Source: Flavobacterium daejeonense DSM 17708
GTDB lineage: Bacteria; Bacteroidota; Bacteroidia; Flavobacteriales; Flavobacteriaceae
NCBI RefSeq assembly: GCF_000425425.1
Contig: NZ_AUDK01000012.1
Coordinates: 1-64,000, forward strand
Length of the DNA stretch: 64,000 nt
Direction: 5' to 3'
The position numbers and the translations under genes were made by a program. Below are positions 19,691-56,457 of this stretch, piece by piece. Under the pieces are notes generated by a model, which searched no databases, was not told where the DNA came from, and saw only the letters and a program-made list of their open reading frames with translations. Positions within the stretch are counted from its first letter, which is position 1, and the number at the start of each line of letters is the position of its first letter.

Positions 19691-19720
19691 AGCCTTTCTT
19701 AACGGAAAGGCTTTTTTTTT
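19691..19720. terminator. Terminator after the HU-like/SPOR gene
   Basis: agcctttc and gaaaggct form an 8-bp stem with a six-base loop, followed by a T run. The converging AraC gene ends in the same stretch. Confidence 0.85.
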
Positions 19721-20669
19721 ATTTCCTTTTTTTCTGTTGTTGCAGTTGAAATTTTCTGGGGCTAATTCCGTTGCGTTGTGAAAAAGTAGAAGTGAAATGC
19801 TGTAATGACGAAAAACCGCAACTAAAGGCAATTTCAGTCATGCTAATACTTGGATTGGTTTTGAGTAATTGAATGGCTTTTTCAAGTTTTAAACTGATGA
19901 TAAAACTGTTGGGAGGAAAACCTGTAAGTTTTTTAACCTCATAAGTGAATTTGGTTTTTCCCATGTTGAAAACGGCGGCCAAATCTTCGATGTGCCATTT
20001 TTTAGTTAGATCACTTTCAAGTAATTGGGTGAGTTTTTCAATGAAAGTATCACTTTCCTGATTTTTATGGATTTTATTCGAAAGTTGGCGATGCAAATCG
20101 ATAAACAAATTTTCCAGAATATTTTGCACTTTGATTTCAAAACCTTCTTCCTGATAAGCCAGTTCGTTTCGCAGTTCATCAAAATATTTCTTGAAATTCC
20201 TGGCTTTTTCAATAACGGAATTATCGGCGTCGCCAATCATTTTTCCTAAGTTTTCCTGAAATGCTGCAGGTAATTTGCTCCAGTTTCCAAAGTTTAATGC
20301 TTTTTCATTTGTGAATTCCTGAGGTTTGATAATAATCCAGTTAATCTGACCAATATCCATAATCCCTGAAATGCTGCCGTTTTCGTGCCAGGGAGCCGTT
20401 ACCGATAAATTTTCGGGAAACAATTCAATTGCTTTGCCTTCAATAACCCAGTCGTATTTTCCACTGTTTACATAATGAATTTCGATTCCGTCATTAAGGT
20501 GCGGACGCATGCTGTCGTCAATGCGTACTTTCGAGAATTTCATGCTGCCAAATTGTTTGATGAAAGGCAATTTTTTTAGTGGTCCGGGATTGTTTTCGTG
20601 CCACCAAACTCCGTAATTTCCATGCTCATCTTTTTCTCTAAGGTTTTTTGGTAACAAAAAGGAATTCAT
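19719..20669 (-). CDS. AraC-family transcriptional regulator, next to the PUL
   Basis: The protein has 316 residues. Residues about 30-150 form a cupin-like sensor region ('GKYDWVIEGKAIELFPENLSV'). Residues 210-312 are the AraC DNA-binding domain, with 'WHIEDLAAVFNMGKTKFTYEVK' (first HTH) and 'SMTEIAFSCGFSSLQHFTSTF' (second HTH). It is divergent from the GH141-like gene, 281 bases away, mirroring the AraC/GH29 arrangement at 5309-8106. It likely controls the PUL or its first operon, with an unknown inducer. Confidence 0.9.
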   Translation of the reverse strand: MNSFLLPKNLREKDEHGNYGVWWHENNPGPLKKLPFIKQFGSMKFSKVRIDDSMRPHLNDGIEIHYVNSGKYDWVIEGKAIELFPENLSVTAPWHENGSISGIMDIGQINWIIIKPQEFTNEKALNFGNWSKLPAAFQENLGKMIGDADNSVIEKARNFKKYFDELRNELAYQEEGFEIKVQNILENLFIDLHRQLSNKIHKNQESDTFIEKLTQLLESDLTKKWHIEDLAAVFNMGKTKFTYEVKKLTGFPPNSFIISLKLEKAIQLLKTNPSISMTEIAFSCGFSSLQHFTSTFSQRNGISPRKFQLQQQKKRK

Positions 20670-20950: not shown

Positions 20951-23464
20951 ATGTTTTTAAAAAATCGATATGGTTTATTCGCTTTTTTAGCGTTGTTTTT
21001 TACTGCTCTTTCCATGCAGGCTGCGGATATTTGGGTGGCAACTAATGGAAAAGATACCAATGAAGGAACCAAAGAAAGCCCGCTGGCAACCGTACACATG
21101 GCTTTGCGAAAAGCCAGAGAATTACGCCGACTAAATGACGTTTCTATCAAAGGCGGAATCCATATTATTATCAAAGACGGAACTTATTATTTTGATGAAG
21201 CTTTATTCGTTAGACCGGAAGATTCCGGAACTGCAGATAGCCCGACAACTATTGAAGCTGATGTGAATGCAAATCCAATTTTTAGCGGGGGAATTGCCAT
21301 TAAAAACTGGAAAAAATCAACTACTGTTATCAACGGACAGAAAGCTGGTACGGTTTGGATAGCCAATGCACCACAAATTGCCGGAGAAGTGATTAATTAC
21401 CGCCAACTTTGGGTGAATGATGTAAAAGCTGTTCGTGCCAAAAGTACTGCCGGAAATAAAATGGAAAGAATTTTGTCCTGGGACAAAACGACCGAAACCT
21501 GCTGGATTCCTTTTAAAGACAAATCGGTGAAGTATGAACCGGGGATGGAAATGTATATTGTACAATGGTGGGCGATTGCTCATTTGAGAATAAAAAATAT
21601 TGAAGTTGTTAAAGACAGCGCGAGACTTTCATTTGAAAAACCGGAAAGTCGCATTCAAAGTGAGCATCCGTGGCCGGCACCCTGGATTTCAAAGAACAAC
21701 GGAAATTCAGCTTTCTTTTTAAACAATGCTAAATCTTTGCTGAATGAAGCCGGAGAATGGTTCTTGGACCGAAGAAATGCAAAGATTTACTATATCCCAA
21801 GAAAGGGAGAAAATATGGCTTCGGCCAAAGTAATAGCGCCGGTTTTAGAAAATTTGGTAGATATAAAAGGAACTATCGACAGACCGGTTCATGACGTAAA
21901 ATTCAAAGGGATTTCGTTCCAGTACAGCAATTGGCTGCGTCCGTCGCAACAAGGTCATGTGCCGTTACAGGCCGGAATGTATTTGCTGGATGCTTATAAA
22001 TTGAAAATTCCGGGAACGCCTAATCAGGCTTCTTTGGAAAATCAGGGTTGGGTAGGGCGACCAAGAGCCGCTGTAGAAGTGAATTTTGCTCATAACAATA
22101 CTTTTGAGGGATGTCGTTTTGAGCATTTGTCTTCCACTGGTTTGGATTTGAATAAGGGAACCAATCATAATACGATTCAGGGAAATTTATTTAAAGACAT
22201 TGGTGGAAACGGAATTTGTTTAGGCGTTTTCTCTGAAGAAGCTTATGAGTCGCATTTGCCTTTGCAGGTAAAAGACGAAAGAGAGATTTGTTCTAACGAA
22301 TTGATTGCCGATAACCTAATTACCAATGTAGCCAATGACGATTGGGGATGCTTAGGAATCGCAGCTGGTTTTGTGAAAGATTTGACCATTGAACACAATG
22401 AAATTTCGGATGTGGCATACAGTGGTATTTCGATGGGTTGGGGTTGGACACATACCGAAAATGTGATGAAAAACAACAGAATTTTGGCAAATAAAATCCA
22501 TCATTATGCCAAACATTTACATGATGTAGCCGGAATTTACACGCTATCTTCTCAGCCAAATAGTTTTATTGAGGAGAATTATATTGACAAGGTATATTAC
22601 AGTCCGTATGCACACGATCCGTTTTTGTGGTTGTATTTGTACACCGATGAAGGTTCTCAGCATTTCACCATTAAAAACAATTGGATTCCGATTCAAAAAA
22701 TCCTGAAAAACAATAATGGTCCTGCAGGAAATATTTGGCAGGATAACAATCAGTTTGTGAGCAATTCGATTAAAGAAAATGCCGGAATTCGTGCGCCTTA
22801 TACCAATTTGAAAAAAGAAGTCGTAATTGACGAGGCATGGGGATTACAGGAAATGCCAAAATCGGTTGCGATTGAAGTGATAGGGAAGAATTTGGATGTA
22901 GCCAAAATCAAATCGACTATCAAAGGTTTCCGTATCGTGGGCGAAGAATTGTACCAATGGGAAAATCATCTGGTGATTTACGGTTTGATGAATCAACCGG
23001 AACGAACGAAAAGAAAATTGGCTTTGGCTTTCCCTGATTTGCAAATAAAAATTTATGAAAACCCGGTTTACGATTTTCAAAATTTTGAAAGATGTCCGGG
23101 AGTAAAACCAGCCTCTGAATGGGAAAATATTGTTTTGACAGCTAATCTGGTTGAAAACCCAAAAATGCAACAGGAATATTTGGATTATCATAAAACCCAG
23201 TTTGAAAAATGGCCGGAAATAGCAAAAGGATTTTGTAATGCCGATTTTCAACAATTGCAGGTTTTTAAAAATGGCCGACAATTGATGTTAGTCATCAGTA
23301 TTCCAAAAGGAGAAGATTTGGATAAATTAAATCCGAAAACTACCGAAAACAATCCGCGTGTGGATGAATGGAATGCTTTGATGAAAAAATACCAAACCGG
23401 AATTGAAGACGCTAAAGCCGGGGGAACCTGGATTTTTTTGAAAAAAGTAGAAGAGAAAAAATAG
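20951..23464 (+). CDS. GH141-like beta-helix glycosidase fused to a RhaM-like mutarotase domain
   Basis: The protein has 837 residues with a signal peptide ending near residue 25 (QAA). Residues about 25-640 form a right-handed parallel beta-helix with 'WVATNGKDTNEGTKESPLATVHMAL' at the start and many 'N.I..N.I' turns ('LTIEHNEISDVAYSGISMG'). The pattern and length fit GH141, which includes RG-II alpha-L-fucosidase and xylanase activities. Residues about 645-715 form a small ferredoxin-like segment. Residues about 721-837 are a RhaM/DUF718 domain with 'EYLDYHKTQFEKWPEI' (Tyr-x3-His and WPE) and 'DEWNALM'. The whole protein is exported, so the mutarotase would act in the periplasm. The GH141 assignment is by pattern only and was not searched. 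Confidence 0.75.
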   Translation: MFLKNRYGLFAFLALFFTALSMQAADIWVATNGKDTNEGTKESPLATVHMALRKARELRRLNDVSIKGGIHIIIKDGTYYFDEALFVRPEDSGTADSPTTIEADVNANPIFSGGIAIKNWKKSTTVINGQKAGTVWIANAPQIAGEVINYRQLWVNDVKAVRAKSTAGNKMERILSWDKTTETCWIPFKDKSVKYEPGMEMYIVQWWAIAHLRIKNIEVVKDSARLSFEKPESRIQSEHPWPAPWISKNNGNSAFFLNNAKSLLNEAGEWFLDRRNAKIYYIPRKGENMASAKVIAPVLENLVDIKGTIDRPVHDVKFKGISFQYSNWLRPSQQGHVPLQAGMYLLDAYKLKIPGTPNQASLENQGWVGRPRAAVEVNFAHNNTFEGCRFEHLSSTGLDLNKGTNHNTIQGNLFKDIGGNGICLGVFSEEAYESHLPLQVKDEREICSNELIADNLITNVANDDWGCLGIAAGFVKDLTIEHNEISDVAYSGISMGWGWTHTENVMKNNRILANKIHHYAKHLHDVAGIYTLSSQPNSFIEENYIDKVYYSPYAHDPFLWLYLYTDEGSQHFTIKNNWIPIQKILKNNNGPAGNIWQDNNQFVSNSIKENAGIRAPYTNLKKEVVIDEAWGLQEMPKSVAIEVIGKNLDVAKIKSTIKGFRIVGEELYQWENHLVIYGLMNQPERTKRKLALAFPDLQIKIYENPVYDFQNFERCPGVKPASEWENIVLTANLVENPKMQQEYLDYHKTQFEKWPEIAKGFCNADFQQLQVFKNGRQLMLVISIPKGEDLDKLNPKTTENNPRVDEWNALMKKYQTGIEDAKAGGTWIFLKKVEEKK

Positions 23465-23589: not shown

Positions 23590-24660
23590 ATGTTAAAAAT
23601 AGCCATTTTAGGTCTTGGAGAAGGACGCAGTACCATGTCGGCCGCAATAGAAAGCAGCAAAGTAGAATTGGTAAAAGTGTGTGACAGAAATGAAGAACTG
23701 TGTAAGCAACGCGCTAAGGAATTTGATTTTCCGCACTACACTACGAATTATGATAATTTGTTGCAGGATGAGGCTATTGATATTATTGCTATTTATACTC
23801 CGGATCATTTACATGCCGAACATGTAAAACAGGCTTTATTGCATGGAAAACACGTAGTTTGTACCAAGCCTTTTATTGATGATTTGGCTGCTGCCAAAGA
23901 GTTAATTGCTATTAGTGAGCAAACAGGAAAAAAAGTTTTTGTGGGACAAAGTTCTCGTTTCTTTGAACCAGCTAAAAGACAAAGAAAAGATTTTGAAGCA
24001 GGAGTTATTGGCGATTTGATTACCATTGAATCACATTATCATGCAGATCACCGTTGGTTTTTAAAGAAAGAATGGTCTTTGTTACAATCTTTCAAATGGT
24101 TGTATGGCGGGTTAAGTCATCCAGTAGATTTCATCCGTTGGTATTTACCAAATATCGAAGAAGTAATGGGCTACGGAATGATAAGCAGCAACGGAAAAAC
24201 AGCAGGTTTGAAAAACGAAGATACGATGCATTTTATTTTCAAAGCTACTGATGGACGTATTGCCCGCGTAAGTGGTGTTTATACTTCGCCAACACAGCCT
24301 ACCAAACGAGACAGCGGAATGACCGTTATTTTAAGAGGAACTGAAGGCGCCAGTCAGGCTGATTATCACGAATTGCGTTATTCGGTGACCGATAAAGAAG
24401 GAGAAGAAAAAATCATTCACTGGGGTGATGCTACTATAAAATACTATTTCCGTTTTGAGGGGCAAAGTCACCATGGGGGAGAATATCAAAATTACTTAGA
24501 ATATTTTGCGGATAGTATCGAACAAGGGTTTACGGCTTATCCGGATATGAAAGAAGGAATTGGAACCGTAGCTTTGTTACAGGCAATGGACAAGACTTTA
24601 CAAACCGGAATGCCCGTAAAAATTGCCGATGTTTTGGGCGAATATGATATTCAACTTTAA
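23590..24660 (+). CDS. Gfo/Idh/MocA family NAD(P)-dependent oxidoreductase
   Basis: The protein has 356 residues. Residues 1-125 form the Rossmann fold: 'IAILGLGEGRS' is the dinucleotide-binding loop, then 'VCDRNEEL' and 'IYTPDHLHAEHVKQALLHGKHVVCTKPF', the last ending in the family CTKP motif. The C-terminal half carries the catalytic region 'YGGLSHPVDFIRWYLP'. It has no signal peptide and should be cytoplasmic. It oxidises or reduces a sugar or inositol derivative, and the substrate is unknown. The SSS symporter starts 12 bases later, so import and oxidation are likely coupled. Confidence 0.85.
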   Translation: MLKIAILGLGEGRSTMSAAIESSKVELVKVCDRNEELCKQRAKEFDFPHYTTNYDNLLQDEAIDIIAIYTPDHLHAEHVKQALLHGKHVVCTKPFIDDLAAAKELIAISEQTGKKVFVGQSSRFFEPAKRQRKDFEAGVIGDLITIESHYHADHRWFLKKEWSLLQSFKWLYGGLSHPVDFIRWYLPNIEEVMGYGMISSNGKTAGLKNEDTMHFIFKATDGRIARVSGVYTSPTQPTKRDSGMTVILRGTEGASQADYHELRYSVTDKEGEEKIIHWGDATIKYYFRFEGQSHHGGEYQNYLEYFADSIEQGFTAYPDMKEGIGTVALLQAMDKTLQTGMPVKIADVLGEYDIQL

Positions 24661-24672: not shown

Positions 24673-26262
24673 ATGAGTAAAATCAGTAGTTTTTTAGAAC
24701 CAGTAGATTATGCAGTAGTAATAGGCTATCTTTTGGTGTTGATTGCTTTTGGATATTATATTTCTTTTATAAAAAATAAAAAATCAGAAGACGAAAGTAT
24801 TTTTTTAGCCGGAAATACTTTAGGATGGTTAAGTATCGGATTGAATATGTGGGGAACCAATGTGGGGCCTTCGATGCTGATTGCTTCTGCCAGCGTAGGA
24901 TTTACTACGGGAATTGTAGCCGGTAATTTTGCCTGGTATGCTTTTATTTTTATTTTGCTTTTGGCTGTCGTTTTTTCACCAAGATATTTAGGAGCAAAAG
25001 TTTTGACTTTACCGGAATTTATGGGAAAACGCTTTGGCGATTCAACCCGAAATATATTGGCCTGGTACACTTTGATTACTATTCTGATTTCGTGGCTGTC
25101 TTTAACCTTGTTTGCCGGAGGTGTTTTGGTGAAACAATTGTTGGATTTACCGATGTATCTTTCCGTAATTATGATGGTCATACTATCCGGTTTTTTTGCG
25201 GCTGCGGGAGGATTAAAAGCTATTGCTTATACGAATGTTTTCCAGATGTTATTACTGATTGGAGTTTCGTTATTATTGGTGATAATGGGGGTTAACAAAG
25301 CAGGAGGATTAGAACATATTTATCATAGTACTCCGGGTTCTTATTGGAATTTATTATTACCGGCAGACGATAAAAACTATCCTTGGTTGGCCATTTTATT
25401 AGGGTATCCTATTATGGGAGTTTGGTTTTGGTGTACCGATCAGTCGATGGTACAATCTATTTTGGGTGCCAAAAATTTAAAACAGGGACAATTAGGAGCC
25501 AATTTTATCGGTTGGTTAAAAATATTGGATGTGCCTTTGTTCATCCTTCCGGGAATTGTATGTTTTGTATTGTTTCCGCATTTAAAAAATCCGGATGAGG
25601 CTTATATGACTATGGTAACCCAATTGTTTCCGGCTGGATTACGTGGTTTGATTATTGTGGTGTTGATTGCCGCTTTAATCAGTACAATTGGTTCGGCTTT
25701 GAATTCCTTAAGTACAGTGTTTACTATGGATGTTTATGTGAAAAACCATAAACCGAATGCGACTAACAAAGAGATTGTAAAAATAGGAAGATTGGTGACT
25801 TTATTTGGTTCATTATTGGCCATTTTAATCACATTGGCTATTGACAGTATCAAAGGATTGAATCTTTTTGATATTTTCCAATCGGTTTTAGGATTTATAG
25901 CTCCACCAATGTCGGTTGTATTTTTATTTGGGGTACTTTGGAACAAAACCACCACAAGAGCAGCCAATTTAACCCTGACTTTAGGAACAGTTATCAGTTT
26001 AGGAACGGGAGTTTTATACTTATGGGTTTTTCCAAACGGAGTCTATCACTGGCCTCATTTCTTATTGTTGTCGTTTTACATTTTTGTTGCCTTGGCAGTA
26101 ATGGCTTATGTGATTACAATTACTGACAAAGCGGGACAAAAAGACAATCAGGAGTTGTTGAAAATCAATCCGGCAGCCAAACCGGACAGGCAGGTGAAAA
26201 TGTTATGGGTGGTGTTAACTTTAGTAATGATTGCACTTTACGTTATTTTTAATGGTCATTAA
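24673..26262 (+). CDS. Sodium:solute symporter (SSS family)
   Basis: The protein has 529 residues with about 13-14 hydrophobic membrane helices. 'NTLGWLSIGLNMWGTNVGPSMLIASASVGF' near the N-terminus and 'SALNSLSTVFTMDVY' around residue 350 are typical of SGLT/NIS-like symporters. In Bacteroidota such carriers often sit in PULs and import monosaccharides or uronic acids together with sodium. It lies between the oxidoreductase and the degenerate M23-like gene. The substrate is inferred as an RG-II sugar, perhaps L-fucose or L-rhamnose. Confidence 0.85.
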   Translation: MSKISSFLEPVDYAVVIGYLLVLIAFGYYISFIKNKKSEDESIFLAGNTLGWLSIGLNMWGTNVGPSMLIASASVGFTTGIVAGNFAWYAFIFILLLAVVFSPRYLGAKVLTLPEFMGKRFGDSTRNILAWYTLITILISWLSLTLFAGGVLVKQLLDLPMYLSVIMMVILSGFFAAAGGLKAIAYTNVFQMLLLIGVSLLLVIMGVNKAGGLEHIYHSTPGSYWNLLLPADDKNYPWLAILLGYPIMGVWFWCTDQSMVQSILGAKNLKQGQLGANFIGWLKILDVPLFILPGIVCFVLFPHLKNPDEAYMTMVTQLFPAGLRGLIIVVLIAALISTIGSALNSLSTVFTMDVYVKNHKPNATNKEIVKIGRLVTLFGSLLAILITLAIDSIKGLNLFDIFQSVLGFIAPPMSVVFLFGVLWNKTTTRAANLTLTLGTVISLGTGVLYLWVFPNGVYHWPHFLLLSFYIFVALAVMAYVITITDKAGQKDNQELLKINPAAKPDRQVKMLWVVLTLVMIALYVIFNGH

Positions 26263-27177: not shown

Positions 27178-29379
27178 ATGAAACATCAATTTTTAATTTT
27201 TAGAACATTAATAACATTGTTTATTCTGGTTATTCTATTTTCTTTTAATAATCTTAATGCACAAACGCAATCCAAAGAAAATAAAGCCACCTGGATCTGG
27301 TATCCGGGTGATTTTGAAATTTGGTTAAGCAATAAAATGCAGGTAAGACGTACCGAACGCGAAGCCGTATTTCCACCGCTTTGGCAATATTATAGTCCGT
27401 ATGCTTTGGTAACTTTTCAAACAGAAGTAGATATTCCGGAAGCCGATGAGGTGAAAATCTTCACTGAAGGTCCTTTTCAATTGCTTTTGGATGGAGTGCA
27501 AATTTATGGCCAGCCAAAATCTTTAAAAATTCCTGCCGGCAAACACAAAATTTCTTTTAAAGTATATAATCAGGAAGTGTTGCCGGCTATTTATATTGCG
27601 GGTAAATATGTAAAATCTGACGCTTCTTGGATTGTGACGAATGAAGATAAATTGTGGATTGATGAAAATGGAAAAGCACAGCAATCGGGAACGCCTTGGG
27701 TGCCTGTGGGTTCCTGGAATTTTGATGCGCCTGAAAATAAGCCTTCTGGTTTTAAATTAACAACGACACCTTGGTTTGCCAAAAAAACAGAAAAAATTGG
27801 CGCTGGGAAGTTGGTGGATTTTGGCAAAGAAACCTTTGGTTACATCAAAATTCACGGTTTAAAAGGTAAAGGTAAAATAGCATTGTATTATGGTGAGTCT
27901 CGTGAGGAAGCTCTGGATACTGCCAAATGTGAAACCTTAGACCATTTGTCTTTTGACGGAAAACAGGCGGAAACTTACACGCATAATGGATCCAAAGCAT
28001 TCCGTTATGTTCAGGTGGTTGCAGATCCATCGGTGCAATACGATTCCATTTCGATGGATTACGAATATTTGCCGTTAGAATATCGAGGTGCTTTCAAATC
28101 TTCCGACCAGGAATTGAATAAAATTTGGGATGTGTCGGCTTATACGATGCATTTAACATCCCGCGAATTTTTTATAGACGGGATCAAGCGCGATCGCTGG
28201 GTTTGGTCCGGTGATGCGTATCAAAGTTATTTAATGAATTATTATTTGTTCTTTGATTCGGCTTCGGTAGAAAGAACGCTTTTGGCACTTCGTGGCAAGG
28301 AGCCTGTGACGGCTCATATTAATATCATTATGGATTATTCTCTGTATTGGTTTGTAGGTGTTTACGATTATTATTTGCATACCGGCGATACGAAATTTAT
28401 CAAAACTTTTTACCCAAGAATGAAATCGCTGATGGAATTTTGCTTGGAAAGAAGAAACAAAAACGGATTCCTCGAACCTTTAGAAGGAGACTGGGTTTTT
28501 ATTGACTGGGCAAACGGATTACCAAAAACGGGCGAGGTGAGTTTTGAACAAATGCTTCTAGCCAGAAGTCTGGAAGCTATGGCGGTGAGTGCTAAAATTG
28601 CAGGTCAAAATGAAGACCAAAAACAGTATGAAAAATTAGCCGCCGATTTAAAAACCAAACTATTCGATGTGTTTTGGGATAAAAAAGAGAACGTCATGAA
28701 ACACCAGCGTATTGATGGTAAAATGCAGGATATTGTTACCCGATACGCCAATATGTTTGGGATTTTCTTTAATTATTTTACGGAAGAACAAAAACAAAGT
28801 ATTAAAAATAAAGTCTTGTTGAATGACAATATTCTTCAAATCACCACGCCATACATGCGTTTTTACGAGTTGGAAGCCTTATGTGCTATGGGCGAACAGG
28901 ATTATGTATTGAAAGAAATGAAAGACTATTGGGGAGGTATGCTAAAAGAGGGCGCAACCTCTTTCTGGGAAGAATACAACCCAAATAAAAAAGGGGCAGC
29001 ACATTTAGAAATGTACGGTCGTCCTTATGGAAAAAGTCTTTGCCATGCCTGGGGTTCCAGCCCGATTTATTTGTTAGGGAAATATTATTTGGGTGTAAAA
29101 CCTACTGCTCCCGGATATGCTCAATACGAAATCAAACCTAATTTGGGCGGATTACAATGGATGGAAGGAAAAGTGCCTACACCAAAAGGAGAAGTTTCAT
29201 TGTTCATAAGTAAATCTGAAATCAAAGTGAAAGCGGCTGAAGGCGAAGGAAAATTGATTATCGAAAGTAAATCAAAACCAAAAACCAATTCGGGAACGAT
29301 TGTTGTGTTAGGGAAGAACAAATATCAATTAACGGTTAAACCAAATGTAAGCTATCAAATTAGTTACAAAGCAATTTAG
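27178..29379 (+). CDS. GH78 alpha-L-rhamnosidase
   Basis: The 733-residue protein has a signal peptide ending near residue 30. N-terminal beta-sandwich regions (about 35-290, including 'YLPLEYRGAFKSSDQELNKIW') lead into an (alpha/alpha)6 barrel. The GH78 motifs are 'FFIDGIKRDRWVWSGDAYQ' (residues about 330-348, the expected general acid Asp/Glu region), 'WVFIDWA' and 'GATSFWEEYNP' near 592-599 (general base Glu region). It releases terminal L-rhamnose in the periplasm. It follows the M23-like gene by 44 bases and precedes a palindromic repeat. Confidence 0.88.
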   Translation: MKHQFLIFRTLITLFILVILFSFNNLNAQTQSKENKATWIWYPGDFEIWLSNKMQVRRTEREAVFPPLWQYYSPYALVTFQTEVDIPEADEVKIFTEGPFQLLLDGVQIYGQPKSLKIPAGKHKISFKVYNQEVLPAIYIAGKYVKSDASWIVTNEDKLWIDENGKAQQSGTPWVPVGSWNFDAPENKPSGFKLTTTPWFAKKTEKIGAGKLVDFGKETFGYIKIHGLKGKGKIALYYGESREEALDTAKCETLDHLSFDGKQAETYTHNGSKAFRYVQVVADPSVQYDSISMDYEYLPLEYRGAFKSSDQELNKIWDVSAYTMHLTSREFFIDGIKRDRWVWSGDAYQSYLMNYYLFFDSASVERTLLALRGKEPVTAHINIIMDYSLYWFVGVYDYYLHTGDTKFIKTFYPRMKSLMEFCLERRNKNGFLEPLEGDWVFIDWANGLPKTGEVSFEQMLLARSLEAMAVSAKIAGQNEDQKQYEKLAADLKTKLFDVFWDKKENVMKHQRIDGKMQDIVTRYANMFGIFFNYFTEEQKQSIKNKVLLNDNILQITTPYMRFYELEALCAMGEQDYVLKEMKDYWGGMLKEGATSFWEEYNPNKKGAAHLEMYGRPYGKSLCHAWGSSPIYLLGKYYLGVKPTAPGYAQYEIKPNLGGLQWMEGKVPTPKGEVSLFISKSEIKVKAAEGEGKLIIESKSKPKTNSGTIVVLGKNKYQLTVKPNVSYQISYKAI

Positions 29380-29464
29380 TCATTGCGAGCGATAGCGCGG
29401 CAATCACACTTGCATAGTCAAGTTTTTTGTAATTGTTAGGAGATTCCTCCTTCGTCGGAATGAC
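29379..29464. repeat. Dispersed repeat of the gtcattgcgagcg type
   Basis: The sequence starts gtcattgcgagcgatagcgc and ends cggaatgac. The ends pair imperfectly, as in the palindromic gtcattgcgag elements seen in many bacterial genomes. It fills most of the gap between GH78 and the following beta-propeller gene. Confidence 0.6.
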
Positions 29465-29502
29465 AAAATCGTAGAAAAACTGTTGCTTAAAAAGAAAAAA
29501 TT

Positions 29503-31188
29503 ATGTTTTCAAACAAAATGAAATATTATTTTAATTCAAAAATAAAAACCGCATTTGTTGCACTGTTTCTGTTATGTATTCAAGCAAATGCGCAAAAAAA
29601 CAATTGGGAAGCTGCTTCTTTCGAAGTCGTAAAATCGAAATATAAAACTTTTAAAACAACACAATACGCTCATGTTTTTTCGGGAAGTAAACACAATATT
29701 GTCGGTTTGGCTCCGGAATTGGAAGGTTTAACAGGTGTTGAAATTCCATTAGATTTATATAAAAATGGAACGAATGCTCCTTTGAAATTGAAGTTCAAAG
29801 AAAAATCGGTGTTGTTGGTGGGGATTTTTCAGGAAAAAAGCGAACAATTTTTACAATTAGACAATTCGCCTTACAAAGCTACTTTGTTGTTGCAAAACGG
29901 AGTTACAATTACCGGATTGCCGCCGGTTAATGTGCATGCGCTTTCGTTCGAAAAAGGGACGCACACGATTTTACCTGATGCTAAAGGACTTTTTTCGGTT
30001 TTGGGTGTGGTTAAAGTGAAGCAGGCTTTGGAAGCACGAAATGCCGAAAAATTAGACGGAAGATTATGGAATCCAACGTATATCATCGAAGGATTTTCGG
30101 ATGAAAAACCTTTGTTTGAAATTATCGGTGGAGAAAATAAACCGGTTATTGACGAAGGTTTTCCGGGAACTGAAGGGATTCAGGGCGGTTTTGAAGGCGG
30201 TCGTGTGGTAAAAGTTGGCGATACTTATCATATGTTTCCAACGGAAAGAGCCGGTGAAAAAGGAGTCGAAATGTATTACGACCGTGTGAAAACCAAAATT
30301 GGTCACTGGACAAGTAAAGATGCGATTCATTGGAAAAGAGAATCAACCATTTTGCAGGCCAGCGGAACGTATGCCATTACTGAAGATGATAATCCAATGA
30401 ACGATCGTCGTGGAGCAATTTGGTCGTATATGCCGGTTTTTAACGAAAAAGAAAATAAATGGTACGGCTATTATTTGGCCTATACCGTTCACAAAGAAAT
30501 TCAACCCAATCATTCTTTCGGACGTATCTGGAGATGCGAATCTACTGTAGCAGGAATCAACGGCATTGCCGGTCCGTACAAAGACATTGGAATTATCATG
30601 GAACCAGGATTGGATTCTCAACCTTGGGAAGGTCGTCAAGGTGTTGCTTCCTTTTTTCCGTATCAAGTAGGCGATAAATATTACGGTTTTTACAGCGGTG
30701 CTTATCCTTTTGAAAGCTGGAAAGATTATCCTAAAAAATCCGGAAAAGGTTGGTTTGTGGCTTTGGCTGAATCAAAAAGTTTAGAAGGACCCTGGACACG
30801 ATTAAACAAAGGTTTGGAACCGATAAAATCCATTCATCCCATGTTTGTCGAAAATCCAATTGTGAGTCAGTTGCCAAACGGCTTGTACATCGCTGTTTTT
30901 GATGGAGGTCCCGAAGGTTGGGGGCATCATTTGCCAAATATGATGGGCTATACACTTTCTAAAGACGGAATTAACTGGTCAGAAGCACATTATTGGCCTA
31001 TTGAAACCAAAGTCGACAAATGGTGGGATATTATGCGAACACCGCTTTGTTTGATTCCCGAAGGAAACGATGTGTATACGATTGTGTACAATGCCATCGA
31101 CTTGAAAAAGCGTTTTCATCCTACCGGAATGGTTAAAGTAAAGTTGAATCGGGAGGTGATGGAGCAACGATTGAAAGAGTTGAAATAA
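29503..31188 (+). CDS. Beta-propeller glycosidase-like protein (candidate GH143 or new family)
   Basis: The protein has 561 residues. The signal peptide ends near residue 31 (NAQ). Residues about 32-215 form a beta-sandwich. Residues about 225-545 look like a five-bladed propeller of the GH43/GH32/GH117 superfamily, with 'GRVVKVGDTYHMF', 'RRGAIWSYMPVFNEKENKWYGYYLAYTV', 'VENPIVSQLPNGLYIAVFDGG' and 'DIMRTPLCLIPEG'. In RG-II loci, one known propeller enzyme is GH143 (Dha-hydrolase), found as the N-terminal part of a larger Bacteroides protein. I cannot confirm this assignment, and a new family is also possible. Confidence 0.6.
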   Translation: MFSNKMKYYFNSKIKTAFVALFLLCIQANAQKNNWEAASFEVVKSKYKTFKTTQYAHVFSGSKHNIVGLAPELEGLTGVEIPLDLYKNGTNAPLKLKFKEKSVLLVGIFQEKSEQFLQLDNSPYKATLLLQNGVTITGLPPVNVHALSFEKGTHTILPDAKGLFSVLGVVKVKQALEARNAEKLDGRLWNPTYIIEGFSDEKPLFEIIGGENKPVIDEGFPGTEGIQGGFEGGRVVKVGDTYHMFPTERAGEKGVEMYYDRVKTKIGHWTSKDAIHWKRESTILQASGTYAITEDDNPMNDRRGAIWSYMPVFNEKENKWYGYYLAYTVHKEIQPNHSFGRIWRCESTVAGINGIAGPYKDIGIIMEPGLDSQPWEGRQGVASFFPYQVGDKYYGFYSGAYPFESWKDYPKKSGKGWFVALAESKSLEGPWTRLNKGLEPIKSIHPMFVENPIVSQLPNGLYIAVFDGGPEGWGHHLPNMMGYTLSKDGINWSEAHYWPIETKVDKWWDIMRTPLCLIPEGNDVYTIVYNAIDLKKRFHPTGMVKVKLNREVMEQRLKELK

Positions 31189-31196
31189 ATAGTAAT

Positions 31197-31330
31197 AGGC
31201 CACTGATTATACGGATGAAACAGATTGGCACAGATTTAAATTTAAAAATAAATCTGGGATAATCTTTTGATCTGTGGCAAAAAAAAAATAAATCCGTGGG
31301 AATCTGTAAAATCAGTGCCATCCGTGGCCT
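31197..31330. repeat. Long palindromic repeat between the two propeller genes
   Basis: aggccactgat at the left and atcagtgccatccgtggcct at the right enclose several shorter copies of cagatt/aatctg and ggcaca/tgtggc. Related shorter elements lie at 35982, 39535 and 45907. Confidence 0.7.
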
Positions 31331-31345
31331 AATAAAATTTATAAA

Positions 31346-35880
<4,535 letters not shown>

Positions 35881-35899
35881 ATTTAAGAATGTTTTAATT

Positions 35900-36034
35900 C
35901 TGCAAGGTTTTCAAAACCTTGTAGGTATTTTAAATAATAGTTTATATCTGCAAGGTCAAAAGAGACCTTGCAGGATCAGCGAAAATCTGTCAAATCTGCG
36001 TGCAAATTTTTTTCACGCAGATTTAGCTGATTTT
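35900..36034. repeat. Cluster of three palindromes between GH2 and GH106
   Basis: tgcaaggttttcaaaaccttg (35900-35921), ctgcaaggtc with gaccttgcag (35949-35972), and aaatctgcgtg with cacgcagattt (about 35991-36023). All could fold as mRNA hairpins in the intercistronic space of 183 bases. Confidence 0.75.
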
Positions 36035-36063
36035 TAAAATGATACATTAGAAAAACAACAATA

Positions 36064-39000
36064 ATGTTTAATAAAAAATACTTCTTTCTTATTTTACTTC
36101 TTTCGGGAATGCTTTCCGCACAGGAAGTTCGTCTAAAAGAGAACTCGGCTTTTCAGCCTACAATTGAATCCTCAAAGCCTTGGGTATATTGGTATTGGAT
36201 GAAAGCCGCCTATTCCAAGGAAGGAATCACGGCCGATTTGGAAGCCATGAAACAAGTGGGGATAGAAGGGGCATATTTGATGACGATTAAAGGACCTGCC
36301 GAACCGCCACTCATCAGTCCGCCAGTTTTGCAATTGAGTCCTGAATTTTGGGATATGGTCAAATGGGCTTTTGTAGAAGCTGATCGTTTAGGCGTAAAAT
36401 TGGCCTTTCACGCAGCCGATGGTTTTGCGGTGGCTGGAGGTCCTTGGATTACTCCCGAAATGTCAATGCAAAAAGTAGTTTGGTCCACTATTGAATTTAC
36501 CGGAGGTAAAAAGATAGCGACGCAATTGGCTGTGCCGGAACATTACAAAGATTATTATAAAGACATTGCCACTTTTGCGATTCCGATAAAAGATTGGGAA
36601 CAAAATTCGAAAGTCTTACTTCCAAAAGTCATAACTTCCAACGGTGAAAATGCAGATTTTTTGGTCAATCCAACACTTGATGGTAATTTGAAAATAAGTG
36701 AAAAAGGCTGGATTTTATACGAATTTGAAAAGCCTTTTTTGTGTCGAAATATAAATATTCAAACCAAAGGATTGGATTTTCAAGCACAACGATTGATTGT
36801 GGAGACCAGCAATGATGGGGTGAATTTTACTTTTCATCAAAGATTACATCCACCTCGACAAGGCTGGCAAAACACCGATTATGGAACCACAGCTACTATC
36901 AAAGCTATTTCAGCCAAATATTTCCGATTTGTTTTTGATCCGGCTGGAACTGAGCCAGGAGCCGAAGATTTGGATTTTGCCAAATGGAAGCAAAGCAGCT
37001 TGAAAGTAAGTAAAATTACACTTTCCAATCAGGCAACAATTGGAAATTACGAAGGGAAATCAGGGGCAATATGGCGTTTGAGTCCAGCAACAACCACCGA
37101 TGAAATTCCAGATGCTTTTCCCAAAGCTTCAATTATCAATGTGAGTCAATTTGTAGATGCCAATGGTAATTTGAATTGGAAAGCACCAAAAGGGAAATGG
37201 AAAATTATCCGTATGGGACATACTTCTACCGGACATGAAAATGCGACTGGAGGTGCCGGAAAAGGTTTGGAAGTGGATAAATTCCATCCAGAACTGATTC
37301 GTTTTCAGCTCGACCATTGGTTTGGAGAAGCAATTCGAATTGCAGGTCCAGATTTGGCTTCGAGAGTTTTGCAAATTTTACATTTGGACAGCTGGGAATG
37401 TGGCAGCCAAAATTGGTCTTCCATTTTTCAAAGCGAATTCAAGAAAAGAAGAGGTTACGATATTGTAGACTATTTGCCGGTTATGGCCGGAATTCCTGTT
37501 GAAAATGTGGATACTTCTGAAAAGCTTTTGTATGATGTTCGAAAAACTATCGCCGAATTGGTAGCTGAGAATTTCTACGGGACAGTTGCCCAGATTGCCA
37601 AAGAAGCCAAGGTAAAATTCAGTTCCGAAAATGTGGCGCCAACCATGATGAGCGATGCCTTATTGCATTTTCAATATGTGGATTATCCTAGTGGGGAATT
37701 TTGGTTAAAAAGCCCTACGCATGATAAACCATTTGATATGTTGGATGCGATTTCGGGCGGACATATTTATGGAAAAGATATTATTCAAGCCGAAGCTTTT
37801 ACCGCTTTGCGAATGGATTGGGATGAGCATCCGGGGAATTTAAAAGTCATTGCCGACCGAAATTATGCCTTGGGAATCAACCGTTTTTTCTACCATGTTT
37901 TTGTACATAATCCGTGGTTGGATCGAAAACCGGGAATGACTTTGGACGATATTGGTTCGTTTTTCCAAAGGGATCAAACTTGGTGGAAACCCGGAAAGGC
38001 TTGGTTTGATTATGCACAGCGTGTACAATTTCAATTGCAAAAAGGTAAACCCGTAGTGGATTTGGCTGTTTTTATTGGCGAAGATTTGCCTTCCCGTTCT
38101 TTGGTGCCGGATCGTTTGTTTCCTTTTGTGCCTCATGTTTTTGGTGAAGATAGAATTGCCAGTGAAAAAATCCGATTGGCAAATGAGGGGCAGCCCGATG
38201 CCAAAATGCCAAAAGAAGTAAGTTACTCAAAAAATAATACCGATTTGTCCCAATGGGTGAATCCGATGAATGGCTACCAATACGATTCGTTCAACGCCGA
38301 TGTTTTTTTACGGAAAGCAAAAGTGATAAACGGAAAAGTGAGCTTTGATGCCGGAATTGAATATGGTGCATTGCTGTTCCCGGGAAGCAGAAGAATGGCT
38401 CCGAACAAAATTATTTCTTTGGCTGTAGCCGAAAAAATGTTGGCTTTGGTCAAAGAAGGAGCGACCCTTTTTATTGATAAAAAACCGATTGCAGCTCCAA
38501 GTTTTCAAACTGCTGAAGAAGCCAAAAAATGGCAGGTGGTCGTAGATGAATTATGGTCTAATGCAAAAAATACGGTGTCAGGTTCTTGGAAATTAGGAAA
38601 GGGAACCCTTATCCGGCTACCTTTTATGGATGCTGATTTTTCCAAAATTGGCATCACTGCAGATCTATTATTTGAAGATAAAATCGATAGTGACAGAGGT
38701 TCGATTGCCTGGACGCACCGCAGAAGTGGCGAGGAAGAAATTTATTTTATTTCCAATCAGTTGGAAAAAAAGCGAATGCTTACTTTTTCCTTTCGCGAAA
38801 GCGGAAAAATTCCACAATTGTACAATCCGGTGACGGATGAAACGACAGTATTGAATGAATGGAAAAGACTAAACGGAAGGACGATTATTCCATTAGAATT
38901 GGACAAAAATGAATCCTGTTTTGTAATTTTCAAAGAAAAAACCATTCAAAGTAAAGAATCAAAAGCTTCGAATATTGTGACTTTCAAAAGGGATCAAACT

Positions 39001-39471
39001 TTGGATGAAAATTGGAAATTGCAATTTGATCCGGCTTATAAAGGGCCAGAAAAAGCCTTACGAATCAGCAAACTTTTTGATTGGAGCTCTTCGGAGAATG
39101 AAAGTATTAAATATTATTCGGGGACTGCGGTTTATGAAAAAGAATTTGTTTGGAAACAAAATAGCAAAGAGCCGGTTTATATCAATTTGGGTTCAATAGC
39201 CAATTTGGCCGAAGTGAGCGTAAACGGAATAGATTGTGGAACGATTTGGACTTTCCCGTATCGATGTAATATTTCGAAAGCTTTGAAAAAAGGAAAGAAT
39301 ACCATTGTTATTAAAGTAACGAATACCTGGGCAAATCGTTTAATTGGTGACCAAAAATTGCCAGAAAATGAGCGATTAACCTGGACAACTGCCCGCTACC
39401 GATTGGTGGAAAGTGAAAATTTGTTACCAGCAGGTTTGTTAGGTCCGGTGATATTAGAAATAAAGAAATAG
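36064..39471 (+). CDS. GH106 alpha-L-rhamnosidase
   Basis: The protein has 1135 residues with a signal peptide ending near residue 20 (LSAQ). 'SKPWVYWYWMKAAYSKEGITADLEAMKQVGIEGAYLMT' marks the start of the GH106 barrel. 'LQILHLDSWECGSQNW' (about residues 436-450) and 'KDIIQAEAFTALRMDW' (about 570-584) carry conserved Glu residues expected at the active site. C-terminal beta-sandwich domains ('TAVYEKEFVW', 'NLGSIANLAEVSVNGIDCGTIW') follow. In RG-II breakdown a GH106 enzyme removes L-rhamnose from a side chain. It is followed, after a 150-base gap, by the acetylesterase. Confidence 0.9.
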   Translation: MFNKKYFFLILLLSGMLSAQEVRLKENSAFQPTIESSKPWVYWYWMKAAYSKEGITADLEAMKQVGIEGAYLMTIKGPAEPPLISPPVLQLSPEFWDMVKWAFVEADRLGVKLAFHAADGFAVAGGPWITPEMSMQKVVWSTIEFTGGKKIATQLAVPEHYKDYYKDIATFAIPIKDWEQNSKVLLPKVITSNGENADFLVNPTLDGNLKISEKGWILYEFEKPFLCRNINIQTKGLDFQAQRLIVETSNDGVNFTFHQRLHPPRQGWQNTDYGTTATIKAISAKYFRFVFDPAGTEPGAEDLDFAKWKQSSLKVSKITLSNQATIGNYEGKSGAIWRLSPATTTDEIPDAFPKASIINVSQFVDANGNLNWKAPKGKWKIIRMGHTSTGHENATGGAGKGLEVDKFHPELIRFQLDHWFGEAIRIAGPDLASRVLQILHLDSWECGSQNWSSIFQSEFKKRRGYDIVDYLPVMAGIPVENVDTSEKLLYDVRKTIAELVAENFYGTVAQIAKEAKVKFSSENVAPTMMSDALLHFQYVDYPSGEFWLKSPTHDKPFDMLDAISGGHIYGKDIIQAEAFTALRMDWDEHPGNLKVIADRNYALGINRFFYHVFVHNPWLDRKPGMTLDDIGSFFQRDQTWWKPGKAWFDYAQRVQFQLQKGKPVVDLAVFIGEDLPSRSLVPDRLFPFVPHVFGEDRIASEKIRLANEGQPDAKMPKEVSYSKNNTDLSQWVNPMNGYQYDSFNADVFLRKAKVINGKVSFDAGIEYGALLFPGSRRMAPNKIISLAVAEKMLALVKEGATLFIDKKPIAAPSFQTAEEAKKWQVVVDELWSNAKNTVSGSWKLGKGTLIRLPFMDADFSKIGITADLLFEDKIDSDRGSIAWTHRRSGEEEIYFISNQLEKKRMLTFSFRESGKIPQLYNPVTDETTVLNEWKRLNGRTIIPLELDKNESCFVIFKEKTIQSKESKASNIVTFKRDQTLDENWKLQFDPAYKGPEKALRISKLFDWSSSENESIKYYSGTAVYEKEFVWKQNSKEPVYINLGSIANLAEVSVNGIDCGTIWTFPYRCNISKALKKGKNTIVIKVTNTWANRLIGDQKLPENERLTWTTARYRLVESENLLPAGLLGPVILEIKK

Positions 39472-39534
39472 TACATAATCTAAAGGGTTTTAACCCGATG
39501 ATTTGAAATTTAGAAATAAAAAAGGAAATTAATG

Positions 39535-39605
39535 GGCACGCAGATTTTGCAGATAAACGCAGATTTTGTTTTATAAAATCCAATAAATCTTTTTAATCTG
39601 TGGCA
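39535..39605. repeat. Repeat of the cgcagattttg/aatctgtgg type between GH106 and the esterase
   Basis: cacgcagattttgcagata and taatctgtggcaaaat are imperfect inverted copies, related to the elements at 31197 and 35982. Confidence 0.5.
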
Positions 39606-39620
39606 AAATAAATTAGAAAT

Positions 39621-41054
39621 ATGAAAAATCTCAGAAATTCAATTGTTGCAATTTTATGTCTTGTTGGAAGTTTCCAAATGAAGGCAGCGATTAAATTACC
39701 GGCTTTGTTTTCCGATAATATGATGTTGCAGCAACAAAGCAGCGCTCCTATTTGGGGTTGGGCAGACAAAAATCAAAGTCTGAAAATCCAAACTTCATGG
39801 GATGCAAAAACCTATGAAGTAAAAGCGGATAAAGACGGAAAATGGAAAATTGCATTGCAAACTCCGATTGCGGGCGGTCCTTATGAAATTAAAATTTCGG
39901 ATTATGCGGAAACGAAAACAATTAAAAATATCTTGATTGGGGAAGTTTGGTTGTGCTCCGGTCAGTCCAATATGGAAATGCCGTTGAAAGGCTTTCCGGG
40001 ACAGCCTGTTTACAAAGGAAATGAGGCAATAGTTCATTCTGCCAATAATCAAATACGATTTATTACGGTTCCAAGAGCCACAGTTTTGACGCCTAATGAA
40101 GATTTCGTGGGTAAATGGAATGCGGCAGCTCCTCAAGCTACGGGTGATTTTAGTGCCACAGCTTGGTATTTTGGTTCCTTGTTGCAGGAGGTTTTGCAAG
40201 TTCCAGTAGGATTAATCCATGTTTCTTATGGAGGTTCGAGTATGGAAGCCTGGATGAATCAGGAAATGTTGAGAGATTTTACGAGTGCTAAAATTCCAAC
40301 CAAACAAGAAGATTTAGCCAAGGATCCCAACCGTGTAGCTACTACTTTGTTCAATGGGATGCTTTCTCCGGTAATTGGTTACGGAATCAAGGGATGTATC
40401 TGGTATCAGGGAGAATCCAATTATGAGCGTGCAGCACAATACAAAGAATTGATGAAGAAAATGGTGAGCAGCTGGCGCGGACTTTGGAATCAGGGCGATT
40501 TTCCTTTCTATTATTGTCAGATAGCCCCCTTTAATTATGCACAATTTCATCCAAAAGATAACAAAGAAGAATACAATTCGGCTTATTTGCGTGAGGCACA
40601 ATTGCAGGCTTCCAAAGAAATTCCAAATTCCGGAATGGCTGTTTTGATGGATATTGGTGAAGAAAATAATATTCATCCTATTTATAAAGAAGCCGGAGGA
40701 ACTCGATTGGGGTATTTGGCTTTGACAAAAACCTATGGATTAAGCGGATTTGAATTTGAAAGTCCGGAATATAAAGCCATGGAAATCAAAGACAATTCGG
40801 TAACCGTTTCCTTTGATAAGGCGCCAAATGGTATTACTGCAAATGGAAAAGATGTAACTGGATTTGAAATTGCGGGTGCAAACAAAGTGTTTTATCCTGC
40901 CAAAGCAGAAGTGAGAAGAAAATCGGTAGTGTTGACTTCGGATAAAGTTGCTCAGCCGGTTGCTGTACGTTATTTATTTAAAGATTTTGCCGAAGCACAA
41001 ATTTTCAGTACCGGCGGATTGCCGCTTTCTTCGTTTAGAACGGATAATTGGTAA
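39621..41054 (+). CDS. SGNH-type sialate O-acetylesterase-like enzyme
   Basis: The protein has 477 residues with a signal peptide (ending near residue 23, MKAA). The N-terminal Ig-like part begins 'LPALFSDNMMLQQQSSAPIWGWA'. 'IGEVWLCSGQSNMEMPL' carries the catalytic Ser block at about residues 115-120. 'IKGCIWYQGESNYERA' is block III, and 'DIGEENNIHP' carries the Asp/His pair. The family removes acetyl groups from sugars. RG-II carries O-acetyl groups, so it probably deacetylates the polysaccharide before glycosidases act. It ends 34 bases before the DUF5703 gene. Confidence 0.88.
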   Translation: MKNLRNSIVAILCLVGSFQMKAAIKLPALFSDNMMLQQQSSAPIWGWADKNQSLKIQTSWDAKTYEVKADKDGKWKIALQTPIAGGPYEIKISDYAETKTIKNILIGEVWLCSGQSNMEMPLKGFPGQPVYKGNEAIVHSANNQIRFITVPRATVLTPNEDFVGKWNAAAPQATGDFSATAWYFGSLLQEVLQVPVGLIHVSYGGSSMEAWMNQEMLRDFTSAKIPTKQEDLAKDPNRVATTLFNGMLSPVIGYGIKGCIWYQGESNYERAAQYKELMKKMVSSWRGLWNQGDFPFYYCQIAPFNYAQFHPKDNKEEYNSAYLREAQLQASKEIPNSGMAVLMDIGEENNIHPIYKEAGGTRLGYLALTKTYGLSGFEFESPEYKAMEIKDNSVTVSFDKAPNGITANGKDVTGFEIAGANKVFYPAKAEVRRKSVVLTSDKVAQPVAVRYLFKDFAEAQIFSTGGLPLSSFRTDNW

Positions 41055-41088
41055 GAACTTAAAATAGTATAAACAAGAATAAAAAAAA

Positions 41089-43407: not shown

Positions 43408-43415
43408 GTTAAGAT

Positions 43416-45884: not shown

Positions 45885-45906
45885 AGAAAAACATTTAGTA
45901 AGATAA

Positions 45907-45976
45907 AATCTGCTAGAATCTGTTTTAATCTGCGTGCCATATTATTTCACGCAGATTTAGCAGATTTATACAGATA
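45907..45976. repeat. Palindrome between PL1 and GH127
   Basis: aatctgcgtgc and cacgcagatt flank an A/T-rich loop, with outer copies of tctgctagaatctg and cagatttatacaga. It is the same element type as 35982-36034. Confidence 0.7.
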
Positions 45977-45993
45977 AAATAAAAACATAAAAA

Positions 45994-48012: not shown

Positions 48013-48131
48013 AAAACTTATTAAAAGTAAAAAAATAATACGATAAAGAAAATTTAACATAAAAAAAACACGAAAACTAAAAAAAAATGTGCTAAAAAAT
48101 CGTGTTGTAATAAAATTTTAGTACATTTGAA

Positions 48132-48151
48132 AAATGTAAACGTTTACATTT
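48132..48151. promoter_or_regulatory. LacI-type operator 1 upstream of susC
   Basis: AAATGTAAACGTTTACATTT is a perfect 20-bp palindrome with the CG centre typical of LacI/GalR family operators. Its right half plus the next G reads TACATTTG, a TAnnTTTG box. It lies 67 bases from operator 2. Confidence 0.75.
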
Positions 48152-48188
48152 GATTGAGTTAGCTTAATTTCGGTTGTTAAAATCTGAT

Positions 48189-48219
48189 TTGTCTTACGAA
48201 ATGTAAACGTTTACATTTG
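48189..48219 (+). promoter_or_regulatory. Predicted susC promoter overlapping operator 2
   Basis: ttg at 48189-48191, a 20-base spacer, and TACATTTG at 48212-48219 fit the consensus. The minus-7 box is the right half of operator 2, so a bound regulator would block RNA polymerase directly. Confidence 0.6.
48199..48218. promoter_or_regulatory. LacI-type operator 2 upstream of susC
   Basis: A second perfect copy of AAATGTAAACGTTTACATTT, 149 bases before the susC start. No LacI-family gene is visible in the window. Confidence 0.75.
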
Positions 48220-48366
48220 GAATTTGTAAAGAATAAAATACAATTAAATGTTAACAAGGCCTGAAAAGAGGCAGTTGTAATTAACATGATCCATTTGATT
48301 TCTCATTTTTTTAGAAATATAAACCAAACGAAAACAATTAATTTTTTAACCAAAAGAAACACACTT

Positions 48367-51711: not shown

Positions 51712-51724
51712 TTTTATTGTAATT

Positions 51725-53722: not shown

Positions 53723-53735
53723 TAATCTAAATAAA

Positions 53736-53764
53736 GAAATGCCTGATTTATTCAGGCATTTTCT
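53736..53764 (+). terminator. Terminator after susD
   Basis: aatgcctga and tcaggcatt form a 9-bp stem with a five-base loop, followed by ttttctt. It may reduce downstream transcription so that susCD is expressed more strongly than the lyases. Confidence 0.8.
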
Positions 53765-53845
53765 TCTATAATAACTAACAAAATTTTTAATTTAATAAAT
53801 AGCAGTTCTAACCAAACATTTTTTATTAATTAAGAAAACTCTAAA

Positions 53846-55564: not shown

Positions 55565-55584
55565 TTTAATTGTAAATGGCACAC

Positions 55585-55622
55585 TTCTTGCTTCGTCTAT
55601 AACGGATGAAGCAAGAATTTTG
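55585..55622 (+). terminator. Hairpin after PL1 paralog A
   Basis: ttcttgcttc pairs with gaagcaagaa around a short loop, followed by a weak T run (ttttgcttt). Confidence 0.6.
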
Positions 55623-55655
55623 CTTTATAAATATTAAGTTTTAAAAAAGATAATA

Positions 55656-56330: not shown

Positions 56331-56343
56331 TAGTTGTTTTGAG

Positions 56344-56419: not shown

Positions 56420-56457
56420 TAAACAAATAAATAATTCATTCTAAAAAAAATACAAAA

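Follow-up and report, generated by a model that had tools for sequence, protein, structure and literature searches.

Introduction

RhaM/RhaU mutarotases are normally stand-alone, cytoplasmic enzymes in which a Tyr-x3-His motif and a Trp-Pro-Glu (WPE) motif have a catalytic role. We analysed a stretch of 64,000 nucleotides from Flavobacterium daejeonense DSM 17708 (contig NZ_AUDK01000012.1, positions 1 to 64,000; hereafter the window), in which the gene at 20951-23464 encodes a glycoside hydrolase of family 141 (GH141) joined to a C-terminal RhaM domain. The characterised relative of the glycosidase part is the RG-II alpha-L-fucosidase BT1002 of Bacteroides thetaiotaomicron. According to PMC10154630, the catalytic residues of BT1002 are D523 and D564 and its product is a fucose-ended disaccharide, 2-O-Me-Xyl-alpha1,3-Fuc, not free fucose; at the date of that source the reaction mechanism of GH141 was still undemonstrated. 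The family also includes a xylanase and endo-fucanases (PMC10154630, PMC12786026). A precedent for sugar anomerisation outside the cytoplasm is NanM of E. coli, described in PMC8141875 as a Kelch-related, periplasmic N-acetylneuraminate anomerase.

BT1002 covers residues 22-622 of the fusion protein with the catalytic pair kept, and both genes lie in gene sets for pectin of the rhamnogalacturonan-II (RG-II) type. It differs in that its matched chain stops short of the tail, and it clusters with unfused GH141s in the tree described below. The likeness to NanM lies in the proposed role only, that of an extracytoplasmic anomerase serving anomer-specific uptake and maybe relieving glycosidase inhibition, whereas NanM is Kelch-related, is a polypeptide of its own and acts on another sugar (PMC8141875); no Kelch family was among the Pfam matches of the fusion protein at E 0.1. 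The parts of the fusion protein belong to known families, and their combination was undescribed in titles and abstract openings among the matches listed in the open-licence literature, a body without most subscription journals. We favour, at a probability of about 0.6, the reading that the gene encodes an exported two-enzyme chain in which RhaM would interconvert the anomers at the fucose end of the sugar released by GH141, feeding a neighbouring sodium:solute symporter (SSS).

Results

The gene encodes a BT1002-type GH141 with a two-domain tail

The open reading frame spans exactly 20951-23464 on the + strand, has an ATG start and encodes 837 residues. Its features are given below, with conservation counted over 93 fusions (the window, 12 further fusion loci and 80 GTDB loci), mostly from one genus.

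20951..21022, + strand: signal peptide, residues 1-24, read by eye, cleavage site approximate
21023..22816, + strand: GH141 (BT1002-type) glycosidase, residues 25-622, from the 5mqp match
21347..21802, + strand: GH141_M insertion domain, residues 133-284 (PF21231)
22523..22525, + strand: Asp525, counterpart of BT1002 Asp523 by 5mqp alignment at constant offset, 93/93 fusions
22646..22648, + strand: Asp566, counterpart of BT1002 Asp564 by the same alignment and offset, 93/93 fusions
22817..23122, + strand: ferredoxin-like partner domain, residues 623-724, without the RhaM signature (predicted structure; weak hhalign match to RhaM)
23126..23461, + strand: RhaM domain, residues 726-837 (PF05336 match at 732-833)
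23177..23191, + strand: Tyr743-x3-His747, aligned to solved mutarotases, 93/93 fusions
23210..23218, + strand: Trp754-Pro755-Glu756, 93/93 fusions
23369..23371, + strand: Trp807, aligned with the first Trp of the RhaM WW pair, 93/93 fusions
23393..23431, + strand: Gln815 to Trp827, an ending in common with the solved L-fucose mutarotase by alignment, both residues in 93/93 fusions

Pfam matches above cut-off were GH141_M at residues 133-284 (E 3.9e-63, 212.4 bits), Beta_helix (PF13229) at residues 372-424 (43.9 bits) and rhaM (PF05336) at residues 732-833 (E 3.1e-11, 43.8 bits versus a gathering cut-off of 23.4). A PDB sequence search aligned the solved chain of BT_1002 (5mqp) to residues 22-622 with an E value of 1.3e-197, and a second, weaker match was the beta-helix protein 9rx2. 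Because the 5mqp chain stops at residue 622, residues 623-837 are an addition relative to BT1002. After allowing for chain numbering in 5mqp that equals that of PMC10154630 plus 5, we found D525 and D566 as a BT1002-type catalytic pair, with a spacing of 41 equal to that of D523 and D564. By homology to BT1002, the GH141 part is inferred to be an alpha-L-fucosidase of RG-II chain A. A preliminary description of this gene, made from the letters alone, had joined the mutarotase to the enzyme that frees the sugar; the BT1002-type assignment agrees with this, whereas a product of free fucose does not follow, as the characterised relative yields the disaccharide.

The N-terminus was judged by eye from the translation to be of the Sec/signal-peptidase-I kind with no lipobox cysteine, in line with the signal peptide described earlier, and relatives of the protein have hydrophobic N-termini too. 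On this N-terminus the protein would be an exported polypeptide. The opposite strand of 20951-23464 carries numerous stops, and an antisense frame at 22844-23281 was rejected as a gene, having a TTG start and lying opposite a conserved coding region.

The RhaM domain keeps the mutarotase signature under constraint

The fused RhaM aligned with stand-alone RhaMs by hhalign at 99.8% (E 1.8e-29, 102 columns). Tyr743, His747, Trp754, Pro755, Glu756, Trp807, Gln815, and Trp827 were invariant in all 93 fusions, as were D525 and D566 in the glycosidase. Together with the Pfam and 5mqp matches, this invariance bears out the earlier proposal of a GH141-like glycosidase carrying a C-terminal RhaM with its signature. 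The domain shares PF05336, Tyr-x3-His, WPE and the first Trp of the WW pair with the solved RhaM/RhaU proteins (1X8D, 2QLW, 2QLX, and 6HHN). It differs from them in its predicted export within a long chain (theirs are of 104-144 residues), and in the alignment it has neither the NPDNSP ending nor the second Trp seen in the rhamnose type. Gln815 and Trp827 also occur in the L-fucose mutarotase 7byu and in most flavobacterial stand-alone RhaMs, so that the C-terminal motif resembles these more closely than the rhamnose type. The fusion tail also matches 7byu in structure, whereas that protein is a 120-residue chain with 15% identity in the structural match and stands elsewhere in the RhaM tree.

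Compared with five fusions from other families, the window protein was 62-72% identical in RhaM, 54-60% in GH141 and 23-33% in the partner domain. The dN/dS ratio (nonsynonymous to synonymous substitution rates, NG86) of RhaM was 0.017-0.098 in 9 of 10 pairs with dS near saturation, and the tenth pair gave no dS. The invariant signature and the better preservation of RhaM than of GH141 between families argue for an active enzyme. A decaying tail is unlikely on these sequence comparisons, and a purely structural tail would not account for the invariant signature.

Besides the fusion, the genome has three stand-alone RhaM genes, and it has one GH141. The stand-alone RhaM at 8134-8460 (+ strand) has an L-fucose-type ending and directly follows a fucosidase gene at 6463-8106 (PF01120), whose product has a twin-arginine-like N-terminus by eye. 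In a PDB search this RhaM matched the solved 7byu, 6hhn, E. coli yiiL 1x8d, 2qlx, and 2qlw; we take 6hhn to be a protein of Formosa.

The tail is predicted to form two ferredoxin-like units

For structure prediction the window was aligned with GTDB loci, 33 of the 80 for the full-length protein and 56 for the tail; L053 was dropped, as it runs off its contig. The tail model, built from 57 sequences, had a mean predicted local distance difference test score (pLDDT) of 75.7 and consisted of two ferredoxin-like units. Foldseek with this model placed tandem alpha+beta barrel proteins on top (3fj2 first, E 6.5e-5), with RhaU 2qlw at rank 21 (E 2.7e-3, 119 columns, template modelling (TM) score 0.64 by target length) and L-fucose mutarotase 7byu at rank 37 (E 8.2e-3, TM 0.72 by target length, root-mean-square deviation (rmsd) 3.4). 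VIA structure comparison aligned 9ltx with the tail over 175 residues (Z 11.6, rmsd 3.8). The RhaM fold, whose presence in a predicted structure had been set as a test of the fusion, was thus retained in a ferredoxin-like C-terminal unit that is consistent with the 2qlw and 7byu matches. The tail model and the tandem matches in Foldseek and VIA likewise agree with the suggestion that a small ferredoxin-like segment precedes RhaM and forms a tandem alpha+beta barrel with it.

Five loci (L044-L048) encode stand-alone tandem proteins of 211-236 residues, with no signal peptide by eye and with a C-terminal RhaM. Their N-terminal half is itself RhaM-like (hhalign 86%), and judged from sequence they would be an unfused solution to a covalent RhaM pair. 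The partner domain of the fusion matched these N-terminal halves at 0.4%.

The fusion is widespread in Flavobacterium and reaches two other families

When GTDB contigs were scanned with the tail alignment, 245 loci proved to encode a relative; the 80 that were kept come from records named Flavobacterium, Flavobacteriaceae, Flavobacteriales or [Flexibacter]. All 80 encode the fusion, in frames of 832-887 residues. The same three-part order was found in these 80 and in all 12 further fusion loci, and an artefact or a local accident was rejected as the origin of the tail. Sampling the bacterial family gave the whole tail in 8 of 397 genomes, in frames of 830-853 residues; GH141_M, searched in the family sample, matched below 1e-50 in 12 genomes, 8 in frames of 830-853 and 4 in frames of 632-641 residues. 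In a phylum sample of 395 genomes, GH141_M matched below 1e-50 in 18 genomes, 15 with a fused and 3 with an unfused frame, and 5 of the 15 fusions belong to two other families of the class. When 390 genomes of the phylum were searched with the tail profile, most of the profile was matched in these same 15, only in frames of 833-872 residues, and the remaining matches listed in that search were in frames of 111-153 residues. For family f4 (146 genomes), the largest frame among the best RhaM matches was 188 residues, a set from which a divergent fusion could escape. The survey across Bacteroidota that had been proposed earlier shows a widespread fusion that extends to two other families. When a viral carrier was looked for in viral_contigs, 4 stretches matched a search pattern and none encoded a relative.

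A maximum likelihood tree of GH141 was built from 33 sequences, including 22 of the 93 fusions. The 22 fused GH141s fell on one side of a branch with a support of 94/93, just below the level that the tool marks with a star, and in 91% of 200 bootstrap trees. Since they lie on one side of a branch, a single fusion event would be the simplest account of these sequences.

RhaM relatives with export-like N-termini stand beside a related symporter or a GH141-like gene

The preliminary description had called the arrangement unexpected, RhaM proteins being normally cytoplasmic and stand-alone. The fusion to GH141 upholds this, whereas a RhaM outside the cytoplasm is not unique: L191, L192, and L193 of the same bacterial family encode stand-alone RhaMs with lipoprotein-like N-termini (lipobox by eye), and L049 and L194, also of that family, encode RhaMs with signal-peptide-like N-termini (by eye). 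The RhaM genes of L192 and L193 directly follow an SSS symporter gene whose product is 46-47% identical to that of the window. In L192, genes for an aldo/keto reductase and an enolase-superfamily protein come next after RhaM, and a search with the latter protein gave one match, at 24%. In L191 the RhaM gene is separated by 36 bases from a preceding GH141-like gene, and genes for AraA, aldolase-II and an FGGY kinase are nearby (L191 10278-17986), a gene set which suggests that some extracytoplasmic RhaMs serve L-arabinose.

A RhaM tree of 35 sequences included 7 of the 93 fusions, 12 stand-alones from the 22 loci L015-L036 and the three lipoprotein-like genes; the short 2qlx fragment was omitted. 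The fused RhaMs formed a clade (97/96) that joined L191-L193 (96/98), apart from the stand-alones without a signal peptide, in a tree for which the tool warns of long branches. L191-L193, the nearest kin of the fused RhaM, resemble it in having an SSS symporter gene or a GH141-like gene as a neighbour and differ in being unfused and in having no partner domain. As an extracytoplasmic RhaM beside an SSS symporter recurs, the fusion appears to be a more closely coupled form of that arrangement.

The fusion gene lies in a predicted pectin cluster

The surroundings of the fusion gene in the window are as follows.

19719..20669, - strand: AraC-type regulator gene, divergent (PF12833)
23590..24660, + strand: Gfo/Idh/MocA oxidoreductase gene, conserved neighbour (PF01408)
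24673..26262, + strand: SSS sodium:solute symporter gene, conserved neighbour (PF00474)
27178..62755, + strand: rest of the cluster, read as RG-II type (Pfam; SusC/SusD and lyase labels by eye)

The order fusion, Gfo/Idh/MocA oxidoreductase, SSS symporter, directly downstream, was found in 77 of the 80 GTDB loci. Of the remaining three, L051 and L053 are short contigs with little sequence beyond the fusion, and the third has intervening genes with the symporter still there. The 12 further fusion loci, taken as 20-kb stretches, all contained the symporter gene, and 11 of them the oxidoreductase gene. The rest of the cluster encodes alpha-rhamnosidase-like, GH2, GH106, SASA esterase, DUF5703, GH127, SusC/SusD-like, pectate-lyase-like, and Apiosidase proteins. 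Its DUF5703 protein (Pfam) is encoded at 41089-43407. Two proteins that look like pectate lyases by eye (53846-55564 and 56458-58143) gave no Pfam match at 1e-5, and an exported-looking protein of 561 residues (29503-31188) gave no Pfam family at E 0.1 or 0.001; a relative of the latter adjoins a rhamnosidase-like gene in L039 and L040.

Two extra genes separate the fusion from the symporter in four loci (L038, L040, L042, and L043). In L038 (10731-13792) they encode GH31 and PhyH proteins by Pfam, and the versions in the other three loci are 75-89% identical. The L038 GH31 has no signal peptide by eye, and the two proteins are a candidate cytoplasmic alpha-xylosidase and a candidate 2-O-methyl-sugar demethylase. 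Sought in 20 genomes, the PhyH protein had matches of 83-100% identity in 4, and another 2 gave 25-27%; the GH31 protein was found at 75-100% in the same 4, with some match at E 1e-60 in 14 of the 20. The genome of the window, searched with the L038 proteins, gave no PhyH match and a best GH31 match of 33%. A search of this genome for the fucose isomerase family PF07881 at E 1e-5 gave no match, with the control found in E. coli, which fits a non-phosphorylating fucose pathway without proving one. FucM acts in a non-phosphorylating fucose route (PMC11199699).

Discussion

We propose that the GH141 part would cut the alpha-L-fucosyl bond of RG-II chain A, by homology, and would free a fucose-ended sugar as a single anomer, as BT1002 leads us to expect. 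The partner domain and RhaM, two predicted ferredoxin-like units, may pair as a covalent version of the stand-alone RhaM dimer. By opening and reclosing the ring of the fucose, RhaM would bring the anomers rapidly to equilibrium outside the cytoplasm, and the neighbouring SSS symporter would import the sugar with one anomer preferred. The imported sugar would then pass to the Gfo/Idh/MocA enzyme, or to GH31 and PhyH where these are encoded. Relief of product inhibition of GH141 could be a second benefit. A narrower version, put forward tentatively, has RhaM as an oligosaccharide anomerase on the reducing-end fucose of 2-O-Me-Xyl-alpha1,3-Fuc, supplying an anomer-selective symporter, with GH31 and PhyH processing the import inside the cell in four genomes. 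Import of a disaccharide followed by cytoplasmic cleavage and demethylation would explain the extra GH31 and PhyH genes.

Several observations weigh against the proposal of a fused anomerase feeding the symporter. That the symporter prefers one anomer is assumed, and both the oxidoreductase and the symporter genes are neighbours at 3 of 7 unfused GH141 loci, so that the partnership with these genes can do without the tail. Sequence searches of the PDB with the 115-residue C-terminal sequence and with the tail profile gave no RhaM, and an NCBIfam search of the fusion protein at E 0.1 gave no family. Foldseek placed monooxygenase-like tandem proteins before RhaM, and its output does not state which unit of the tail RhaM matched; RhaM was absent among the 50 VIA rows listed, which excludes nothing. 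The full-length model had a pLDDT of 55.1, too poor to position both active sites. By hhalign the partner domain gave a weak in-register match to RhaM (22.5%) and a match of 0.1% to the fused RhaM itself. A derivation of the partner domain from RhaM is thus suggested by the fold and the in-register match, whereas the other hhalign comparisons do not point there. The mean majority-residue fraction over the 93 fusions was 0.89 for RhaM, 0.85-0.88 for the GH141 parts and 0.85 for the partner, a small lead for RhaM. As to the substrate, 7byu sits on a long branch of the RhaM tree with the rhamnose-type references, apart from the fused RhaM, and the L191 RhaM lies close to arabinose genes.

That last point touches the first of three other explanations, in which RhaM does work as a mutarotase outside the cytoplasm, its substrate being a different sugar that the cluster sets free (L-rhamnose or L-arabinose, for instance), and being joined to GH141 serves only to put it in the right place. 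The cluster has alpha-rhamnosidase-like, GH106 and GH127 genes, the family takes its name from rhamnose, and the related lipoprotein-like RhaM of L191 lies near an L-arabinose isomerase gene. We nevertheless consider this unlikely, as the full tail was found only on BT1002-type GH141 (15 of 15 in the 390-genome phylum search) and the Gln815/Trp827 ending is unlike that of the rhamnose-type references. The tail could also be a non-catalytic domain with a RhaM-like fold that dimerises or stabilises the glycosidase or binds a pectin sugar. The existence of tail-less unfused GH141s, a partner domain that is poorly conserved and free of the signature, and the frequency of the fold in non-mutarotase proteins (Foldseek, VIA) all speak for such a role, which an invariant signature in 93 of 93 fusions and the higher conservation of RhaM than of the glycosidase between families render improbable. 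Very improbable is another alpha+beta barrel chemistry, such as that of monooxygenase-like tandem proteins, for although 3fj2, 5f9p, 3fez, and 9kdp outrank RhaM in Foldseek, Pfam rhaM is over its cut-off with no monooxygenase among the five Pfam families listed, and hhalign matches the domain to stand-alone RhaMs at 99.8%.

Mutarotation is mostly taken as spontaneous and is omitted from models of polysaccharide use. A mutarotase fused to a pectin glycosidase, retained in many Flavobacterium species and in two more families and, between families, more strongly conserved than the glycosidase, would imply that anomer exchange limits the uptake of the GH141 product. An annotation as GH141 alone overlooks a probable second enzyme in the same chain. 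The fusion and the SSS symporter form a directly testable pair, which points to an import route for RG-II products.

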